Shown here: positions 7,447 to 16,329 of the stretch, piece after piece
How positions within the stretch are numbered: position 1 is the first letter of the stretch
Layout: each line of letters starts with the position of its first letter
Translations under genes and position numbers: made by a program
Notes under the pieces: generated by a model
Database searches by the model: none
Told to the model about the DNA's origin: nothing
What the model saw: the letters and a program-made list of their open reading frames with translations, nothing else
Assembly (NCBI RefSeq): GCF_001429605.1
Contig: NZ_LMSS01000005.1
Location: forward strand, 230,618 to 294,617
Direction of reading: 5' to 3'
From: Phycicoccus sp. Soil802
GTDB taxonomy: Bacteria > Actinomycetota > Actinomycetes > Actinomycetales > Dermatophilaceae
Length of the DNA stretch: 64,000 bases

Positions 7447-7824
7447 ATGAAGGTTCTCGTGGTCGAGGACGACCTCGACATCCAGGACCTCGTGGTCGCC
7501 CTGCTGAGTCGGGCCGGTTACGACGTCGTCGTCCGGGACAACGGCGACGCCGGACTGGCCGCCGCGACGACTCACGTACCTGACCTGGTGGTCCTCGACT
7601 GGATGATGCCGGGCCTGAGCGGGGTCGAGGTGTGCCGGGCCATCCGGGCCGACCCTCGGACCAAGGGCGTCGCGGTCCTGATGCTCACGTCCAAGGCCCA
7701 GGAGGGCGACATCGACCAGGCCTTCACCGCCGGAGCCGATGACTACATGGTCAAGCCGTTTCGGGGGCGCGAGCTGGTCAGTCGTGTCCAGTCCCTGACC
7801 GTCAAGGGCGCCAGGCCGCAGTAG
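7447..7824 (+). CDS. Single-domain response regulator (receiver only)
   Basis: A 125-aa CheY-like protein with no output domain. It has the acidic pair (VVEDD), the phosphoacceptor Asp in VVLDWMMPG, Thr in LMLTSKA and Lys in MVKPF. The start is fixed by an excellent ribosome-binding site, AGGAGGGA, at 7432-7440. No histidine kinase is adjacent, so the partner is unknown. Its last 23 bases overlap the convergent end of the broken HNH gene. Confidence 0.9.
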   Translation: MKVLVVEDDLDIQDLVVALLSRAGYDVVVRDNGDAGLAAATTHVPDLVVLDWMMPGLSGVEVCRAIRADPRTKGVAVLMLTSKAQEGDIDQAFTAGADDYMVKPFRGRELVSRVQSLTVKGARPQ

Positions 7825-7985
7825 TCGCTGCCGCTGCCCGCTCGCCGGCTGTGGTGTGGCGGTGGGTGAGCCAGTGGTCGTAGGCGCCGGGGGTCAGGTC
7901 CCAGTGCACCCCGTCGTGGGTGAGCTGGGCGTGGTAGCCGTGCTTGTGGACGATGGTGTGGTGTCGCCCGCACAACAGGGCGGCG
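7802..7985 (-). pseudogene. 3' fragment of a DUF222/HNH endonuclease gene cut by the element
   Basis: Read on the minus strand, this piece encodes the C-terminal HNH segment NAALLCGRHHTIVHKHGY and ends at 7802. Its 5' half lies at 13866-15044 beyond the mobile element. Joining the two parts at the shared TT gives 1308 bp, 436 codons, an uninterrupted gene of about 435 aa, the usual size for 13E12-type HNH proteins. The fragment itself has no start and is not expected to be translated as part of the protein. Confidence 0.9.
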
Positions 7986-7994
7986 TTGTCGGCT
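7979..7994. other. attL, inferred crossover TT at 7986-7987
   Basis: Host half GGCGGCG, core TT, element half GTCGGCT. Combined with the right end, the rebuilt attP reads AGCCGCA-TT-GTCGGCT, whose flanks contain the inverted repeat AGCCG/CGGCT centred on TT. This is what serine integrases use: short imperfect dyads around a 2-bp core. Confidence 0.75.
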
Positions 7995-8000
7995 GATCGC

Positions 8001-8006
8001 TAATAT
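8001..8006 (+). promoter_or_regulatory. Probable -10 box of the integrase gene
   Basis: TAATAT lies 9 bp before the GTG start codon, just inside attL. The transcript would begin at or within a base or two of the GTG, a leaderless message. In the excised circle the -35 region would be changed to sequence from the right end, so expression may differ between the integrated and circular forms. Confidence 0.55.
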
Positions 8007-8014
8007 GACCCCTT

Positions 8015-9418
8015 GTGACGACACCTCGCGCGGCGGCGATCTACGCACGGATCAGCAGTGACACCGAAGGCACGGGCTTGGGTGTCACACGGCAGGTCCA
8101 GGACTGCGAACGTCTTGCCGAGCAACTGGGGTGGACAGTGGCTGAGGTGTATACGGACAACGACTTCTCGGCCTACTCGGGCAAGAAGCGACCCGCATAC
8201 GCGCAGATGTTGGACGACATCCGCGACGGCATCCGCGACGCCGTATTGGTGTACCACGTGGACCGGCTGACTCGGCGGCCTGTGGAGCTTGAAGAGTTCC
8301 GCGAAGCGTTGGATACGGCCGGGGTCAAGCATGTGCGGTTCGTCGTCGGTGACAGCGACATCATGACCGGCGACGGCCTGATGGTGGTCCGCTTCCTGGC
8401 AGCGGTCGCTGCGAACGAGTCGGCGTCCAAGTCACGACGGGTCAAGCGGAAGTTCCAGCAGAAGGCAGAGCGGGGTGAACCTCACGCCGGAGGACCCCGC
8501 CGACCCTTTGGGTACGCCGACGACAAGGTGACCGTGCGTGAGGACGAGGCCGTCGTGATCCGAACACTGGTCGCGCGGTTCTTGGCCGGAGAGTCGCTGC
8601 GGTCGCTGACGGTGTGGCTGGACCAGCAGGAGGTGCGAACGGTCGCAGGTGGACCGTGGAAGACGCCAACGCTGCGGACCTTGATTGCTTCGGGGCGCAT
8701 CGCCGGTCTGCGTGAGCACCAGGGACAGGTCATTGGTCCTGCGGTGTGGGACCCGATCATCAGCACCGACGAGCGGAACCGGGTCCTCGCGCGGATCGAG
8801 AGCCGCAAGACGAGTGGACGCCGAGCGCCGCGTCGGTATCTGCTGTCGGGTCTGCTCAGGTGTGGCAAATGCGGAAACCGGTTGTACTCCGCGGCCCGAG
8901 CCACCACACGCCGGTACGTCTGCAATTCCGGGCCTGACCACGGCGGGTGCGGGCGCTTGACCGTCGTCGCGGAGCCTGTGGAGCAGATGATTGCTGACGC
9001 GGTACTGATGCGCCTTTCCTCCCCTGCCCTGTCCGAAGCGTTGGCGGGTAGGGCAGCCGCCGACGAGCAAGCATCGAGCCTTGCTGACCAGGTCGACTCC
9101 GACCGGGAACAGCTCGACGAACTGGCAGGACTCTACGGGCGGAAGGCGATCAACGCGGCGGAGTGGCTTGCCGCTCGCAACCCCATCGAGGCCAGGCTGC
9201 GTGAGGGACAGCGACGGCTGAACCGGATGACCGCCAGCACCGCCCTTGACGGTTTGACCGGACTGGATGGGGACCTAGGACCCAAGTGGGCGGGGTTGAA
9301 CCTCGACCGGCAGCATGCCGTGATCAGCGCACTCCTCGAGCACGCCGTCGTTGGTCCGGGGACCCCAGGAGCCCGCGGACTGGACCCGAGCCGAGTCCAA
9401 CCCGTGTGGCGACTCTGA
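8015..9418 (+). CDS. Large serine recombinase (integrase)
   Basis: A 467-aa site-specific recombinase that inserts and excises this element. The N-terminal resolvase domain (residues 1-150) has AIYARISSDTEG with the nucleophilic Ser, and YHVDRLTRR. The recombinase domain is around 155-260 (GGPRRPFGY; IASGRIAGLREHQGQ). A zinc ribbon follows (LLRCGKCGNRLYS ... YVCNSG.DHGGCG) and a coiled-coil-like region around 345-400. The length and order fit the large serine integrase family. The start is GTG at 8015, only 27 bp from the attL core, the usual position for an integrase of this type. No separate recombination directionality factor was recognised. Confidence 0.95.
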   Translation: MTTPRAAAIYARISSDTEGTGLGVTRQVQDCERLAEQLGWTVAEVYTDNDFSAYSGKKRPAYAQMLDDIRDGIRDAVLVYHVDRLTRRPVELEEFREALDTAGVKHVRFVVGDSDIMTGDGLMVVRFLAAVAANESASKSRRVKRKFQQKAERGEPHAGGPRRPFGYADDKVTVREDEAVVIRTLVARFLAGESLRSLTVWLDQQEVRTVAGGPWKTPTLRTLIASGRIAGLREHQGQVIGPAVWDPIISTDERNRVLARIESRKTSGRRAPRRYLLSGLLRCGKCGNRLYSAARATTRRYVCNSGPDHGGCGRLTVVAEPVEQMIADAVLMRLSSPALSEALAGRAAADEQASSLADQVDSDREQLDELAGLYGRKAINAAEWLAARNPIEARLREGQRRLNRMTASTALDGLTGLDGDLGPKWAGLNLDRQHAVISALLEHAVVGPGTPGARGLDPSRVQPVWRL

Positions 9419-9613
9419 GGGCGGCAGGGTGGAGGCGGGCGCGCGCTTCGCTTGCCGCGGCCGCCTCCCACCCACGCCGCCGATCAGGGCAGCCACCTCG
9501 GACAGGATCCGCGGATCGCCCACCAGGACCGGAACGCCTTGGGCTGCACACGAATCCATCAGCCAGCGGCGCACCACCTCCTGCGGCACCTGCTGGGAAC
9601 CTGTCCCTGTCAT
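9275..9613 (-). CDS. Small element protein downstream of Rep
   Basis: Up to 112 aa. The first 45 residues (VVRRWLMDSCAAQGVPVLV, DPRILSEVAALIGG) look like a real, folded small domain of a kind I have seen beside replication genes in actinobacterial elements; the rest is Arg/Pro-rich and overlaps the 3' end of the integrase gene on the other strand, so a shorter product or a later frameshift is possible. The ATG is 1 bp after the Rep stop codon, so it is probably co-translated with Rep. Function unknown. Confidence 0.5.
   Translation of the reverse strand: MTGTGSQQVPQEVVRRWLMDSCAAQGVPVLVGDPRILSEVAALIGGVGGRRPRQAKRAPASTLPPSESPHGLDSARVQSAGSWGPRTNDGVLEECADHGMLPVEVQPRPLGS
9427..9473 (+). terminator. 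Hairpin after the integrase gene
   Basis: GGGTGGAGGCGG at 9427-9438 pairs with CCGCCTCCCACCC at 9461-9473, with one bulged base. There is no T run. It begins 8 bp after the integrase stop and could end transcription in either direction, but it also lies within the small minus-strand ORF. Confidence 0.45.
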
Positions 9614-9614
9614 C

Positions 9615-10379
9615 TCAGCCGGCCCACTGCACCCAAACGGCCGGCGGACCTTGCCAGTCTTCGACCTCATCGGAGGACCAGGACGTCGCGGGGAGTCCAC
9701 CCATCAGGTCCGCAGCCTGAGCTAGAACGTCCTCACGGGTGGCACCACGCAACCGGATCACCTCCGGGGTGTAGCCCTGTGCGACGTCGAACCGGTGCAG
9801 CCCACGGGGACGGTGGCCAGCCTGCTCATCCATGAAGGTTTTGGCCACGTACTTCGACAGGTAGCCCGCAGCCCGTCGTGCCTCTGCCAACTTGCCCGAC
9901 CCCACCGGCAGGTCACCTAGCAGCTTGATGTGGACGAAGCCGCGACCCCATGCGGTATCGAGGTCCTTGCGGGCGATGTAGCGTCCTGCGGCGAAGTGGA
10001 CGTGGAAGTGCACCCCGTCCTTGTGCAACTCGGGCACCCACGCGTAGGGAAACGGCTCCCCGACTTGCTCCCGCAGATTCCGGAAGAACACCCCGACGTC
10101 CTGGCGCACCTGGCGGGCGTCAGTGCACCGCGGCGGGCCGTAGGTCAGCGTGCCCAGCCTGTTCAACAGGTTGGCCGCGCAGTAGCGGCGCAACCTGGCG
10201 CGGGCGCGACGACCCGCCTCGACCGCCGCACGCTCAGGGTCCGCAGCGGGACCACCCACATGCCCGGAGACTCGTTCACGGGCGGACTGGAAACAACCCC
10301 CGGCCTCACCGGCACCGGGGTACAGCGTGAGCATCCAACCGCGTTGCAGTTGCGGCTCAGGGACACAAAATGACGACAT
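9615..10379 (-). CDS. HUH-type rolling-circle replication initiator (Rep)
   Basis: A 254-aa protein with the three motifs of HUH endonucleases: motif 1 LGTLTYG near residue 86, the metal-binding motif GVHFHVHFA near 130 and the Tyr motif AGYLSKYVAK near 178. It would nick a double-strand origin and stay bound to the 5' end, replicating the excised circle by the rolling-circle route. I chose ATG 10379 because AGAGGTG lies 8 bp upstream; a TTG at 10442 would add 21 residues. Rep and the following small ORF form one transcript. No helicase or partition gene is seen. Confidence 0.82.
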   Translation of the reverse strand: MSSFCVPEPQLQRGWMLTLYPGAGEAGGCFQSARERVSGHVGGPAADPERAAVEAGRRARARLRRYCAANLLNRLGTLTYGPPRCTDARQVRQDVGVFFRNLREQVGEPFPYAWVPELHKDGVHFHVHFAAGRYIARKDLDTAWGRGFVHIKLLGDLPVGSGKLAEARRAAGYLSKYVAKTFMDEQAGHRPRGLHRFDVAQGYTPEVIRLRGATREDVLAQAADLMGGLPATSWSSDEVEDWQGPPAVWVQWAG

Positions 10380-10852
10380 CGAAACACCTCTTGGGATAGC
10401 GCCAATGGGAAGCGCGCTCACCCCCGAGCCGGGGCAGAACAAAAGGCCGGGAGCGAGTGCTCGACCGGCCCTAAGTGAGGTGGCACCTTTCAGACGGCAA
10501 CCACGAGGCGCGCTGCGGACCGCGCTCCGATTCCGTTACCGCATCCCTGCCGCACGACTGCGACTACTTTTTCCCCCGGGACCAGGGGCGTGATGAGTGA
10601 GTTATGGGTGGTATCGCCACCGGTCTGTGACGTCCGCAGACCCCATGACTATCAAGGCGAATCACAACGATGCAATACCCGCTAGCGAAGATCACCCGAA
10701 CGGACGAGCCCCCACGAAAACGGGCGCGGTGGCTGCAGCCCAGCAACGTCTACGCATGCTGCCGATGAGCGGACGTCTCGCTCTAGGGCTGGCATGCTTC
10801 GGCCCATGACCTCCGAGAGCCGCAGACCACCCGCTTGGATGGTGTGGTGCCC
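10380..10852. other. Non-coding interval of the element, candidate replication origin
   Basis: This is the only gap over 300 bp in the window. Short open frames exist on both strands but none has a good start site or a recognisable product. It lies directly upstream of rep and holds several inverted repeats: 10445-10470 and GGTGG/CCACC around 10606-10620. A double-strand origin and a rep promoter with attenuator would be expected here; I cannot identify the nick site. Confidence 0.4.
10445..10470 (-). terminator. Hairpin with T run, upstream of rep
   Basis: GGCCGG/CCGGCC outer arms and GAGC/GCTC inner arms around a small loop, followed on the minus strand by TTTT (10441-10444). This is a good intrinsic terminator for leftward transcripts, or an attenuator in a rep leader. 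Confidence 0.6.
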
Positions 10853-11023
10853 ATGATCTGCTGCTTCTGTGGTGAAGCCTTGAAGGCCGCATGGGCGACA
10901 ACCTTGGCCGTTGCCCCACCACGGTCGGAGGGCGAAACCCAAGGGCTCTACTGCCATGGTCGTTGCCTGCTGGACAGGCTTCACCCGTCGATCCCGTTCC
11001 TCCCCAGCATCGAGGACGCCTAG
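10853..11023 (+). CDS. Small Cys-rich, zinc-ribbon-like protein
   Basis: 56 aa with CCFCGE near the start and YCHGRCL near residue 40, a likely zinc site made of two Cys pairs and/or His. The end, LHPSIPFLPSIEDA, is of a type I associate with small actinobacterial proteins of unknown role. ATG 10853 is used; GTG at 10841 or 10844 would add a few residues and no strong ribosome-binding site decides between them. It may act with the next gene. Confidence 0.6.
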   Translation: MICCFCGEALKAAWATTLAVAPPRSEGETQGLYCHGRCLLDRLHPSIPFLPSIEDA

Positions 11024-11094
11024 CGAGACGCCCTTTCATGCCGTAATTCGATCCAGCACGAGCGGCTGCTGTGCCAACAGGAGAGGATGCTCCC

Positions 11095-11520
11095 GTGGAC
11101 CAGACCCAGGAGAGAAGGCTGATCGGTAGTCTGGCTTTGGCTCTGGAACAAGTGGCCAACGGGGAACTGAAGTTCATGGCCGCAGTCCAGTCGGCAGATC
11201 AGGCCGACCTTGGGAAAGCCGCTGCGTCTCTGCCACACACATTGATCCTGACGGGGGCAGCGACGGCCGCCGTGCTCGGAGACCTGCTCGATGGCTCGTG
11301 CGCGTGGCAGGACGCTCAGGCGTGGGCGTTCTTCGTGCGCCGAGGCTACGTGCCTAGTTGGCGAAGTCCGATCCTGCCGATTGCCGTCGACTATGAGGAC
11401 TTCTACGAAGACGCCATAGTCGAGGCCGTCTCACGTATGGACGAGCTTGGAGACGAGGTGGATGGCCACATTTCCGAGGCCGAGGGACGCCTGTTGCTCC
11501 AACTCTTGGGAGTGCCGTAG
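11095..11520 (+). CDS. Hypothetical element protein
   Basis: 141 aa, mostly helical by eye, acidic, no membrane segment. I recognise no family. Features: RLIGSLALALEQVANGEL, a hydrophobic helix PHTLILTGAATAAVLGDLL, and YEDFYEDAIVEAVSRMDELGDEVDGHI near the end. GTG at 11095 is chosen because AGGAGAGG lies 8 bp upstream; a GTG at 11071 in frame lies upstream of this site and is less likely. It sits 71 bp after the Cys-rich ORF. Confidence 0.6.
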   Translation: MDQTQERRLIGSLALALEQVANGELKFMAAVQSADQADLGKAAASLPHTLILTGAATAAVLGDLLDGSCAWQDAQAWAFFVRRGYVPSWRSPILPIAVDYEDFYEDAIVEAVSRMDELGDEVDGHISEAEGRLLLQLLGVP

Positions 11521-11620
11521 TCCGGAAGGTCCCAGTGAGAACGTCCCCTCATGCCCCGAGGCGGAGTCCGAGTTGTGTTGCTATTTCAAGTGAAGAGCGC
11601 GGTCGGGCGTATAGCCTGCC

Positions 11621-12457
11621 GTGATGCTGCACTCGCAACGGAAACGACGCGCCGACCGTGACGCTCGTGAGGCGGAAGGCGAGAACCTCTGGGTGGAGGA
11701 CGTCCCCCAAGCAGCTCGCGTCAAGATTGCTACTTTTTGGGCACTCCTACAGGAGAAGTCCTCTGAGTACGTCGGCACCATTAATCGAGAAGTCGCCGAC
11801 CTGATGCGACTCGGCGGGGGTTACAACGTCCGATCCATTGATGGGGACTCGCTCATCAAAGCGACGAACGCCGATGTGGCTCTCGACGTTATTGGATCCT
11901 TTGCCCTCTACGTTAAGGACGGTCGGTCCATCTCGCGGTTCGCTTCCGACTTTGATCAGTTCGTTAATACCGTATTCGAGGACTACCGGGTCGCCTATCG
12001 AATGGTGGATCAGGAGGTCATCCCCATCGGTTCGGATGAACTGCATACCGAGGTCGTCGCCCCCGCTTTGCGCTTGCTTGTTGGAGCGCAGTTCAGTAAG
12101 GCCCACGCCGCCTATTTGGACGCACTCAAGGAGATTCCGGCCAGCCCTGCCAACGCTATAACCGATGCGGGCACTGCCCTCCAGGAAGTCCTTACGGCCG
12201 TGGGCTGCGCCGGAAACGCGCTTGGCCCTCTCATCAAAAGCGCCAAGAAGAAGGGTCTCCTAGCGCCGCATGACGATGCGCTCAACAATGGGCTCGAGAA
12301 TTTCTTGAATTGGGCTTCGGCTGACCGTAGTCAAACTGGCGATGGCCACCACGTCTCCGATGCCACGCGGGCGGATGCCTGGCTAATGGTCCATATAGTT
12401 GGCGCGCTTATCGTCCGACTCGTGGACCCGTCGAAGAGATCGACGTCGGGCATCTGA
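11621..12457 (+). CDS. Abi-C-like (abortive infection C-terminal type) protein
   Basis: 278 aa. The C-terminal 100 residues (SPANAITDAGTALQEVLTAVG, LGPLIKSAKKKGLL, LENFLNWASADR, then ADAWLMVHIVGALIVRLV) follow the layout of the abortive-infection C-terminal domain (Abi_C): a helix with Ala/Glu, a Gly-Leu-Leu turn, a short charged loop with Gly/His, and a final hydrophobic helix. The N-terminal 170 residues are unrecognised. It starts at GTG 11621 or ATG 11624; TATAGC at 11610-11615 suggests a leaderless transcript. AT-richer than the chromosome. A phage-defence role is inferred from the domain and from being cargo of a mobile element. Confidence 0.6.
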   Translation: MMLHSQRKRRADRDAREAEGENLWVEDVPQAARVKIATFWALLQEKSSEYVGTINREVADLMRLGGGYNVRSIDGDSLIKATNADVALDVIGSFALYVKDGRSISRFASDFDQFVNTVFEDYRVAYRMVDQEVIPIGSDELHTEVVAPALRLLVGAQFSKAHAAYLDALKEIPASPANAITDAGTALQEVLTAVGCAGNALGPLIKSAKKKGLLAPHDDALNNGLENFLNWASADRSQTGDGHHVSDATRADAWLMVHIVGALIVRLVDPSKRSTSGI

Positions 12458-12520
12458 TCTCGACCCGTTGACCGTCGATGATCCGCAGGCGAACCAAATG
12501 GGCCTGCTTACCTGCCACGC

Positions 12521-13600
12521 CTACTCAATTGGCGGCAGGAAGCCAGCCTTGTCGAGCCTCTTCGAGTTCGCCCGCGCGACCACGGAACCAACTGGGGTGA
12601 CGCTGAAGAAGACTGCGAACTCATCCCACCACCCAGCGATTTGGTTCAGGGTTGGGAGCGTGCAAAGGCGTTCGCGGTAGGCAGGCACTAGGGAGTCGTC
12701 GCGCTCGTCCAGTTTGTAGGCCGAACTCGCCACCGCCGCGGCGGCCTCCGCTTCCGCATCGGACTTGCCCGCTCCCACCAGCAGCGACCTAAAGCCGTTG
12801 CTACCCGTGAATGGCAATCGCTCGTAGCCTGGCTTGAAGGTGTGTGGCACCGGCGCGACGCTGATCCGGTGGACGTCCCGCAGCTCTGCAATCGCGGCAG
12901 TCCCCTCCTCGGCGCCCGCAGGCAAGCCCACGGACAAATAGCCTGGTGTCTTTTCAGTCCAGTAGTCAGCGAGCTTCTTGAATGACTGTATTGAGTCCTG
13001 CCGTACTGCGCCGAGTACATCCAGATGTTCGATCCACGCCCGCCCCGACGGCAGTTCCAAACCCTCGGACAACTGTTCAAGCATTCGATCCATCGCGCCG
13101 AGACCCTCATCCACGTCCCCGTTCAGAGGCGAATACTGGGCCGCTGCGGCATAGACGGTGAGGCCACGGAGTGCCTGCGAATCCATTTGGTCGACGATCT
13201 CGATCGCCCGATTAATTCCCGCCCGAACCGGCCGATCGTCTGCACGTTTGGCACGATCCTCAATCAAAGCAGCAAGGATGTCGTAGTCGTTGTCGCGCTC
13301 GGTACTCGCTGCGCCGATTTGAGCCTTTCGCAGAGCGACTTGGAACGCCGGGTCCGCCATAGCGCCAAGTAGCCCTTGCCTCGCCAAACCATCAATAAGG
13401 ATGCCGTCGAACCGCGCGATGCGTTCCGCCGCAATAGTTTGCGCCTCTACCGTGTACCCATCTATTGCCTCACGTGCGCTCTCTCGCGCAATTTCCCGAG
13501 CACGATCTTCTGTCACCCCTTGGACAATTACCAAATCGCCAGAGACTTGGACCTGGCTCGAATTGTCGCCAGCCTTTTGCCCCTGTCCCCGTACGATCAC
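12521..13600 (-). CDS. LPO_1073/Vpar_1526-like protein, coupled to a membrane peptide
   Basis: 359 aa, soluble. The N-terminus KAGDNSSQVQVSGDLVIVQG followed by a helix (DRAREIARESAREAI) resembles the start of the LPO_1073/Vpar_1526 family as I remember it. The middle is helical with RAGINRAIEIVDQMDSQALRGLTVYA; the C-terminus is unrecognised. It starts at GTG 13600, which overlaps the stop of the membrane peptide gene (GTGA), so the two are translationally coupled. No catalytic motif is evident. Being at the edge of a mobile element with an Abi-like gene, a defence or exclusion role is a reasonable guess, not shown by sequence. Confidence 0.6.
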   Translation of the reverse strand: MIVRGQGQKAGDNSSQVQVSGDLVIVQGVTEDRAREIARESAREAIDGYTVEAQTIAAERIARFDGILIDGLARQGLLGAMADPAFQVALRKAQIGAASTERDNDYDILAALIEDRAKRADDRPVRAGINRAIEIVDQMDSQALRGLTVYAAAAQYSPLNGDVDEGLGAMDRMLEQLSEGLELPSGRAWIEHLDVLGAVRQDSIQSFKKLADYWTEKTPGYLSVGLPAGAEEGTAAIAELRDVHRISVAPVPHTFKPGYERLPFTGSNGFRSLLVGAGKSDAEAEAAAAVASSAYKLDERDDSLVPAYRERLCTLPTLNQIAGWWDEFAVFFSVTPVGSVVARANSKRLDKAGFLPPIE

Positions 13601-13776
13601 TGCTTAGGCCCCTCGGTGTAGTCCCGCCCGACCTGGGTTTGCCTCGACCGGTCACCCCCACGCTGCGATTGGCGGGTGCTATTGATGCCGACTCGCCACC
13701 CAATGAAGCCGCCAGCTGACCCTCCAAGAACCAAGCCGATGAGCATGGTGCCTAGACCATCAAAGAACCAATCCAT
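13597..13776 (-). CDS. 59-aa single-pass membrane peptide with GD.S.Q.QV motif
   Basis: Starts MDWFFDGLG, has one membrane segment (MLIGLVLGGSAGGFIGWRVGI) and a polar tail QRGGDRSRQTQVGRDYTEG. The tail repeats the pattern at the start of the next protein (QKAGDNSSQVQVSGD). The ATG at 13776 has a strong ribosome-binding site, AAGGGAGGGG, 2-3 bp away at its near end. Its TGA overlaps the GTG of the downstream gene. It would place its tail at the inner face of the membrane if oriented with the short end outside. Confidence 0.75.
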   Translation of the reverse strand: MDWFFDGLGTMLIGLVLGGSAGGFIGWRVGINSTRQSQRGGDRSRQTQVGRDYTEGPKQ

Positions 13777-13865
13777 GGCCCCTCCCTTCTTAAAAGCCAT
13801 CCTGCCATGGCCTGCACTCCGACGTCGGGGCCATGCCCCGCCGATCGCGGGCAATTGGACGCGCG

Positions 13866-15044
13866 TCAACGAGGCTTGGTTGCTGCAGCCTCACAGAGGG
13901 CTGGTTTAGGAGTAGCCGCATTGGTCAGGTCGGTGGGGCCGCCGTCGGCCCAGTGCCACAGGTGGTGTGCGTCGCACCAGGTCGCGGGGACCGAACAGTC
14001 GGGGAAGGTGCAGCCGCGGTCGCGTAACCACAAGGCCCGGGCCTGGGCGGAGGTGAAGAGCCGGAACCTGCGGCCGAGGTCCAGGACCTGCCCGGCCTTG
14101 CTGAGCACGACCGGGAGGATCCCGGCGTCGCAGGCGATCTTGCGGGCGGTCTGCGGCGGCAGCAGGGTCCCGGCCTCACCGGACCCGACCACGGTGGCGG
14201 CGCGGGTGCGGCCGGTCAGGCCCTCGAGGGTGACGGTCACGAACAGCTGCGCCTTGTCGGTGGTGGCGACCCCGTCGGCGGACGCGACGCCGCGGCGGAC
14301 GACCTCGAGCAGGACGTCCATCCGGCGTTGCCCGGACGGGCGCCGGTCTGGCTCCCCCTGCGCGGGGCGGGGCGCGGACAATCCTTGGACGGCGGCCTCG
14401 ATCACGGTCTTGGCTTCGGTGTCGACGACCATCGTGTACTCGAACAGCCCGGTCCCGTCGGCGAACGGCTGCGACAACGACCGCCGCTCACCCGCCCGGT
14501 CGTGCTCGGCCTGCAGCTCCCCGGCCGCGCCGTGCTTGGCGACCAGTCGTTCCCGCAGCCCGCGGACGTCCTTGGGCCGGCCCCACGACGCGACGTCGAC
14601 CAGCCCGTCCATCACCGGGCCGTGCGCCCCGGGGGCCAGCCGCGGGGCGAGCCGGTCGAACTCCTCGACCACCACGACCGCGGTCACCAGCGGCACCCGC
14701 GCCTCACGCACCGCCGCCACGAGGGCGGCATACCGGTCGTCGGTGGCGGCTTCGGCGACCCGGACGACCCGCGCGGACCCGCCCGCCCGCAGGGCCGGGC
14801 AGTGGTCCAGCAGCCACGCGGACCCGCCGGACCGGCCCGCCCCGGTCTCACCCCGGTCGGTGGCCTCGCGGAGCACGTCCACCCGGGCCGCGTCGGCCCG
14901 CACCGCGAGCTGGTCGAGCAGCCCCGCGAACTCGCCCAGCCCGGCACCGTCGGCGGACCACAGCTCGGCGTCGATCCCGGTCAGCGCGGCGCAGGCGTCC
15001 TGGACAGCCGTGCGGCGCTGTTCGAATGTCATCCCCCGATCCAT
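13866..15044 (-). pseudogene. 5' fragment of a DUF222/HNH (13E12-type) endonuclease gene
   Basis: Encodes the DUF222 N-terminal domain (from MTFEQRRTAVQDACAAL) and the start of the HNH domain (CTFPDCSVPATWCDAHHLWHWADGGPTDLTNAA). Beyond 13921 it runs into element sequence and adds TPKPALCEAAATKPR before a stop at 13866, so a 392-aa chimera without the last HNH His/Cys residues could still be made. ATG 15044 or 15032 are possible starts; neither has a perfect ribosome-binding site. The 3' half is at 7802-7985. 13E12-type genes are often present in several copies and are used as integration targets in mycobacteria, which fits the insertion here. Confidence 0.88.
13914..13929. other. attR, inferred crossover TT at 13921-13922
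   Basis: Element half AGCCGCA, core TT, host half GGTCAGG. Rebuilt attB is GGCGGCG-TT-GGTCAGG, which encodes ...DLTNAAL... in the HNH gene on the minus strand. Confidence 0.75.
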
Positions 15045-15312
15045 GCCACCGAACCTACCGGCCGGGTCTGACAACCCACCGGCTACGAAACCTGTTGGTA
15101 CACAATCCGATTCGCACGCCGGGATGGCCACCAGATCCGGCGCCGATACCGCACGCGCTGTCCACAGGGCGAGGCGCGCGACTCCGATGTCCACAGGATC
15201 CGGCCCGGCCGACTGAGCAGGCCGGCCCGGCCGACTGAGGACGCCGAAGCCCCTCCGACCAGGGGAACATCCGGGGACTCCCCCCACCCGGGCACACGGA
15301 TAGGATTGGTCG

Positions 15313-16329
15313 GTGAGCACCCCCACAGCTGCGGCCCCCTCCGTCGACGCGACGGCCAGGGCGCGCGATCTCCTCGGCGTCTCCCGCCTCACCAACGCGG
15401 CCCTCACCAGCTGGTTGCACGGGCTCCCGGGCGTCGACCAGGTCGGCTGCGAGGCGCGTGCTGCCGGGCTGGGCACGCGGTCGATCAAGACGACCTCGAA
15501 GGCGTGGGGCATCGACCTGGCGATCTCGATGATCGACCTCACGACGCTCGAGGGCGCCGACACCCCCGGCAAGGTGCGCGGCCTGTGCGCGAAGGCGATC
15601 ACTCCCGACCCCACCGACCTGGCCACTCCTCGACCCGCCGCGATCTGCGTCTACGGCGACATGGTCCCCACCGCCAAGGAGGCCCTGGGGCAGAGCGGCG
15701 TCAAGGTCGCTGCCGTGGCCACCGCCTTCCCGAGCGGTCGGGCACTCATGCCGGTCAAGCTGGCCGACACCCGCGACGCCGTGTCGGCCGGGGCCGACGA
15801 GATCGACATGGTCATCGACCGTGGTGCGTTCCTCTCCGGCGACTACCTCACGGTGTTCCGCGAGATCGCCGAGGTCGCCGAGGCCTGCGTTCGCACGGAC
15901 GGCACCCGCGCCCGGCTGAAGGTCATCATGGAGACCGGCGAGCTGGTCACCTACGACAACGTCCGTCGGGCGTCCTGGCTCTCGATGCTGGCGGGCGGCG
16001 ACTTCATCAAGACCTCCACCGGCAAGGTCTCCCCTGCGGCCACCCTGCCGGTCACGCTGATCATGCTCGAGGCGGTCCGCGACTGGCGCGACCTCACCGG
16101 CGAGATGGTGGGCGTCAAGCCGGCCGGTGGCATCCGCACGAGCAAGGACGCGCTCAAGTTCCTCGTCACGGTCAGCGAGATCGCCGGCGACGACTGGCTC
16201 GACCCGCACTGGTTCCGGTTCGGCGCCTCCAGCCTGCTCAACGACCTCCTCCTGCAACGCCAGCGGATGGCGATCGGCGCCTACTCCGGCGCCGACTACG
16301 TCACCGACGACTCGCCCAGCCTGTACTGA
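15313..16329 (+). CDS. deoC: Deoxyribose-phosphate aldolase
   Basis: A 338-aa class I aldolase that splits 2-deoxyribose-5-phosphate into acetaldehyde and glyceraldehyde-3-phosphate. The Schiff-base Lys is in FIKTSTGK near residue 235, the second catalytic Lys in VGVKPAGGIRT near 270, and DEIDMVID near 160. The start is GTG 15313; TAGGAT at 15301-15306 suggests leaderless transcription. The two aldehyde dehydrogenase genes follow and can oxidise the acetaldehyde formed. Confidence 0.95.
   Translation: MSTPTAAAPSVDATARARDLLGVSRLTNAALTSWLHGLPGVDQVGCEARAAGLGTRSIKTTSKAWGIDLAISMIDLTTLEGADTPGKVRGLCAKAITPDPTDLATPRPAAICVYGDMVPTAKEALGQSGVKVAAVATAFPSGRALMPVKLADTRDAVSAGADEIDMVIDRGAFLSGDYLTVFREIAEVAEACVRTDGTRARLKVIMETGELVTYDNVRRASWLSMLAGGDFIKTSTGKVSPAATLPVTLIMLEAVRDWRDLTGEMVGVKPAGGIRTSKDALKFLVTVSEIAGDDWLDPHWFRFGASSLLNDLLLQRQRMAIGAYSGADYVTDDSPSLY

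Follow-up and report, generated by a model that had tools for sequence, protein, structure and literature searches.

The described systems closest to the locus reported here are the bacterial NLR-Bell pairs. In these, according to the available part of a 2021 review on amyloid signalling, adjacent or overlapping genes encode a Bell effector with a C-terminal motif and an NLR protein with an N-terminal motif, and the same part of the review asks about fungal and bacterial signalling amyloids outside NLR pathways (PMC7889193). A further point of reference is the gpA-gpQ interval of P2-like phages, which is described as a defence hotspot in the available part of PMC9122126. In a 64,000-nucleotide stretch of DNA from Phycicoccus sp. 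Soil802 (the whole of which is referred to as the window), we analysed a pair of overlapping genes whose products, a short membrane peptide and a larger protein, carry a common motif at corresponding ends.

All features of the pair lie on the minus strand. The gene at 13597..13776, with an ATG start 3′ of a GGGAGG stretch, encodes a 59-aa membrane peptide (the proposed membrane effector), while the gene at 12521..13600 encodes a 359-aa protein (the proposed cytosolic sensor), and the junction reads as a GTGA overlap of both genes at 13597..13600. The sequence of the peptide contains a hydrophobic, transmembrane segment at residues 7-25 (13702..13758) and, in its tail, the motif QSQRGGDRSRQTQVGRD at residues 36-52 (13621..13671), which is met again as QGQKAGDNSSQVQVSGD at residues 6-22 of the partner N-terminus (13535..13585). 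The pattern common to peptide and partner is Q.Q..GD.S.Q.QV..D, in the same register. The genes, coordinates, motif stretches and GTGA overlap quoted in the original prediction all proved exact when the sequence was re-read, and the resemblance to LPO_1073/Vpar_1526 that it had named was borne out by a match of the 359-aa protein to NCBIfam NF045477 (LPO_1073/Vpar_1526) of 74.6 bits, over a curated cut-off of 45. The matching domain covers partner residues 29-349 (12554..13516). No Pfam match was found for the 59-aa peptide.

AlphaFold modelling of the 359-aa protein yielded a pLDDT of 84.8, in which residues 1-27, including the motif, scored below 50 and are predicted to be disordered, followed by a long helix and the confidently predicted, mostly helical domain, for which no clear match was found among solved or viral structures. 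For the peptide, a helix was modelled with modest confidence over residues 2-33, followed by an unstructured tail (mean pLDDT 62.6, a low confidence overall). Motifs that are predicted to be flexible on both sides fit ordering upon assembly, which is a fit of models and short of proof. The one hydrophobic helix of the window peptide is flanked by charges of –2 before and +3 after, from which the tail is predicted to be cytosolic, and the charge pattern placing the tail in the cytosol was seen in seven of nine peptides (the exceptions being those of E. coli and locus L004).

Ten distinct pairs were found, each with the motif both in the tail of a membrane peptide and at the N-terminus of an NF045477 protein. 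They are the pairs of the window, Agromyces (L002, the same as L009), Demequina (L003, the same as L006), Nocardioides, Arthrobacter, a Clostridia MAG, two IMG/VR contigs, MT837131.1 (the partner being cut short in that unverified record) and E. coli; L056, which is counted among the ten, is biased as evidence because it was found via the motif itself. The genes of the pair overlap or lie at most 9 bases apart in all ten, with the 4-base overlap recurring in L006, L007, L008, L009, L010 and L056, while L011, L004 and E. coli are spaced differently. All seven partners scanned matched the NF045477 family at E up to 1, and the E. coli partner did so with 243.4 bits, also matching PHROG 19542. Neither gene of the pairs in the window, in E. 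coli and in L008 was matched by any PADLOC model, and the L056 partner likewise went unmatched. In the tail of the L004 peptide (1215-1496) the motif occurs twice, the additional copy being the weaker one; none of the other aligned peptides repeats it.

Matches to NF045477 over the cut-off were present in 3 of 396 genomes of the order, in 2 of 396 genomes of the phylum sample (the window genome belonging to both samples) and in 1 of 391 genomes of the class of the Clostridia MAG, where two more matches fell below the cut-off. Four of the five distinct genomes with such a gene carry the peptide directly upstream (L008 lying in genome G781); the fifth (L005) lacks the motif in the partner as well as any motif peptide upstream of it. 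The larger gene is thus usually accompanied by the peptide and, with the motif on both sides of ten pairs (the motif-found L056 among them), the peptide keeps the motif, so that neither of the two outcomes named in the original prediction as speaking against it was observed. Moreover, a scan of the genome collection with patterns of the protein core (not of the motif) returned five loci, three of them already known, with the pair in all five, and a viral scan added one pair.

With regard to chance resemblance, 51 of 100,000 shuffles of the partner's first 40 residues matched the peptide tail at least as well as the actual sequence does (local score 45), and the same score ranked peptide and partner first among the 37 neighbouring gene pairs on one strand in the window (from our own rough gene calls, less than 300 bases apart), the next pair scoring 34. 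A profile of eight peptides, including that of the window and without any partner, was run on six genomes or records. In the 4.3-Mb window genome no place outside the peptide gene matched it better than the partner N-terminus (E 0.018, the next being 8.2), and the partner likewise came first in five of the six genomes or records (E 2.9e-5 to 0.018). In the sixth, the Clostridia genome, two unrelated places ranked above the partner, which was third outside the peptide gene (E 0.65). A second profile, made from only the tails of eight peptides, was compared with the 9,997 stop-to-stop frames that the fetched loci yield; up to E 5 it listed nothing but peptide tails, all ten partner N-termini and four phage membrane proteins, the latter having been chosen by the motif. 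Partner E-values in this search ranged from 3.5e-5 to 1.1, of which the weak ones (0.6 for L008, 0.65 for L009 and 1.1 for E. coli) are not significant alone. Shuffle tests of each tail against its own partner, covering nine pairs with L056 left out, yielded p ≤0.002 in seven pairs, 0.004 in L004 and 0.05 in L011, and combined to a Fisher value of 3e-17, which is an overstatement because the pairs are kin. Tails resembled their own partner slightly better than a foreign one, with a permutation p of 0.075, so that the co-variation of the motif raised in the original prediction was not significant.

The E. coli pair (WP_000687980.1 and WP_000490525.1) has a different membrane part, which lacks the W.FDG start and contains two hydrophobic stretches, of which the second was recognised by eye, while the motif is kept in both its tail QSVGDNSTAVQARGD and its partner start KQKQQIGNNSYAIQAGN. 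At the level of sequence, this suggests that the membrane part may be exchanged while the coupling motif stays. The pair was intact in 6 of 5,426 E. coli genomes, with both genes every time, and a seventh genome contained a short remnant of it near an IS5-like element. In the three intact loci read, the pair is located between the replication endonuclease and the portal gene of P2-like prophages. Its neighbours in strain H3 correspond to PADLOC Hp1-Hp3 (E <1e-150), and those in strain PEC422 match PADLOC models weakly. In the Clostridia MAG (L008), an HsdR gene (over cut-off) directly follows the pair. Ahead of the pair, and separated from it by two unknown genes, lie an HsdS-like gene and a piece of HsdM, neither of which reaches the cut-off.

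In the window, the element that carries the pair encodes a serine recombinase (8015..9418, plus strand; Resolvase, Recombinase and Zn_ribbon_recom matches) and a rolling-circle replication protein (9615..10442, minus strand; REP_ORF2-G2P), and genes of these two kinds, the replication protein being of the same family, also flank the pair in L006 and L007. The neighbouring cargo gene (11621..12457, plus strand) weakly matches PADLOC PDC-S32 as well as STM4504/CBY_0614 and AbiJ_NTD4, the latter two with scores under the curated cut-offs, and these matches make it possibly a second defence-like gene beside the pair. ORFs 7802-7975 and 13866-15626 look, by eye from the ORF list, like the C- and N-terminal parts of one gene, apparently an HNH gene (13E12/DUF222-like); with this gene split, the recombinase element would span roughly 7,980-13,870. 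A mobile or defence-related setting, as surmised for the pair, is supported by the recombinase and replication protein at the window, the P2-like interval in E. coli with its Hp1-Hp3 neighbours, the HsdR neighbour in the Clostridia MAG, and the TIR and PIN_8 genes that relatives of the element carry in place of the pair.

Of the 396 genomes of the order, 11 carry a gene for a relative of the element's replication protein; one of these is the window genome, and the loci of the other ten (L064-L073) were read. A recombinase adjoins the replication gene in eight of these by eye (all but L072 and L073). In L073 the replication gene is reduced to a broken remnant and no recombinase could be seen; the replication gene has an internal stop in L070, L072 and L073. 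L068 is the Demequina pair itself, and L066 was the one of the ten without clear cargo. From the other eight loci, nine cargo genes were chosen by eye and scanned together with the L056 partner as a tenth protein. These revealed a CAP12/Pycsar-type TIR (L070), PIN_8 (L067), HEAT repeats with a weak OloA match (L069) and DUF4062 (L073), and the remaining five of the nine scanned cargo genes had no or weak matches. DUF4062 proteins have been reported to form a phage-defence system in the available part of PMC13174449. Elements with this recombinase and replication protein and with differing cargo are a possible hunting ground for new defence genes. By eye, the L056 pair was found on a 10-kb contig with serine recombinase, primase-like and capsid-like genes, which is perhaps a phage satellite.

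The motif also occurred in a membrane protein on four viral contigs (L057-L060), in whose records, which may be fragments, no NF045477 match was found at E up to 10. The membrane protein of L058 shares 99% identity with a protein of Gordonia phage OneUp and has relatives in 22 Gordonia phage records. In the six copies read (L057, L058 and phage records L074-L077), AGDNSTQ is located near the C-terminus of the membrane protein and is invariant, in proteins down to 42% identical. The gene directly after the Gordonia motif membrane protein is of unknown function (phrog_11731 in L058). In L059 (1-885) and L060 (250-852), hydrophobic stretches were recognised by eye in addition to the motif. As judged from these sequences, the motif of the Gordonia phages may be a decoy of the host module, or another partner may have escaped notice.

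We read the pair, with a probability of about 0.5, as an anti-phage module of mobile elements and prophages in which the LPO_1073 protein as sensor triggers the membrane peptide as effector through the motif. Since its layout is that of the bacterial amyloid signalling pairs, the LPO_1073 protein is proposed to sense infection and to order the peptide tails. The LPO_1073/Vpar_1526 protein would then be a cytosolic sensor or regulator and the small peptide a membrane effector, both carrying a Q-rich, beta-arch-like motif (Q.Q.AGDNS.Q.Q..GD) that would be flexible at rest and face the cytosol. Infection would trigger the sensor and cluster its N-terminal motifs, the clustered motifs would template the peptide tails and make the peptides assemble in the membrane, and the assembled peptides would damage or depolarise the cell with an abortive-infection outcome. 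Among the parts of this reading, contact through the motif is quite probable and a defence role is nearly as probable, while stacking of the amyloid type is conceivable at slightly less than even odds; the direction of signalling and the membrane damage are what we infer on top of these. With a defence module of this kind, the LPO_1073 family, which is uncharacterised, would gain a partner and a probable role.

A more far-reaching proposal, against which we would put the odds, is that of an amyloid-type immune signalling pair without an NLR, in which a minimal membrane effector with an exchangeable membrane part and an LPO_1073 sensor would be coupled by a short beta-arch motif. If so, the Gordonia phages, which come without the sensor, would use the motif on their own membrane protein as a decoy or cap. 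The pair is a compact and testable candidate for a non-NLR signalling amyloid, present in a prophage of the genetically easy E. coli.

Among the other readings, the one that survives best, though we consider it unlikely, is that the peptide serves solely to hold the soluble protein on the inside of the membrane by a static contact between the two motifs, so that the LPO_1073 protein does the work, such as superinfection exclusion at DNA entry. Such an anchor would suit a peptide with little beyond one helix and the motif, and also pairs that reside in P2-like prophages or, in the case of L014, close to genes that by eye resemble those for terminase and portal. Moreover, on the assumption that the locus tag Vpar_1526 names the NF045477 family, the latter includes an uncharacterised Veillonella protein that the proteome table of PMC5491611 lists in the whole-cell, OM and SE fractions, a distribution in keeping with an anchored protein but one that may reflect contamination. 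The repeat of the motif in the L004 peptide, however, fits stacking better than a one-to-one anchor.

It is rather improbable that the pair is a toxin-antitoxin system, in which the hydrophobic peptide would be a membrane toxin neutralised by the partner through binding of its tail. Its mobile location and the order of its genes, in which that for the short hydrophobic peptide comes first and runs into that of the partner, would agree with this, but a folded protein of 359 aa is large for an antitoxin, and the P2 defence interval and the restriction gene neighbour fit a defence module at least equally well. We give just as little credence to an absence of contact, with the motif as a general tag for assembly or localisation that each protein uses separately. 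The Gordonia phages, whose motif-bearing membrane protein comes without the partner family, and the lack of significant own-partner specificity point that way; against it stand the motif on both genes of all ten pairs and their close spacing, and the L005 partner, which is without the peptide and also without the motif. Finally, even though the motif is short and biased in composition, a chance resemblance of two short Q-rich stretches can practically be dismissed in view of the nine-pair shuffles (kinship inflating their combined value) and the whole-genome profile searches.

Searches of the main text of openly accessible papers returned neither a described function or partner for LPO_1073/Vpar_1526 (LPO_1073 being named in none of the papers covered and Vpar_1526 in a single one) nor, among the best-matching papers, an account of the peptide/LPO_1073 pair; the pairing and the common motif of these proteins are findings of the present analysis. 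The E. coli pair resembles the defence systems of the P2-like gpA-gpQ interval in its position, which is that same interval, and differs from them in not being named in the available part of PMC9122126, the supplementary tables of which may list it as hypothetical genes. Compared with BASS and the NLR-Bell pairs, the partner is without an NLR or other NTPase domain (no Pfam match to NLR/NACHT/NB-ARC-type or other NTPase domains at E up to 10 in seven partners), and the effector has one or two hydrophobic stretches in place of a helical bundle, which would be longer than the peptide. Because the NLR feature is missing, we do not claim membership of the BASS class for the pair. What it has in common with the NLR-Bell pairs, as laid out in the available part of PMC7889193 and as far as genes go, is the adjacency or overlap of the two genes and the placement of the motif at the C-terminus of the membrane effector and at the N-terminus on the receptor side.
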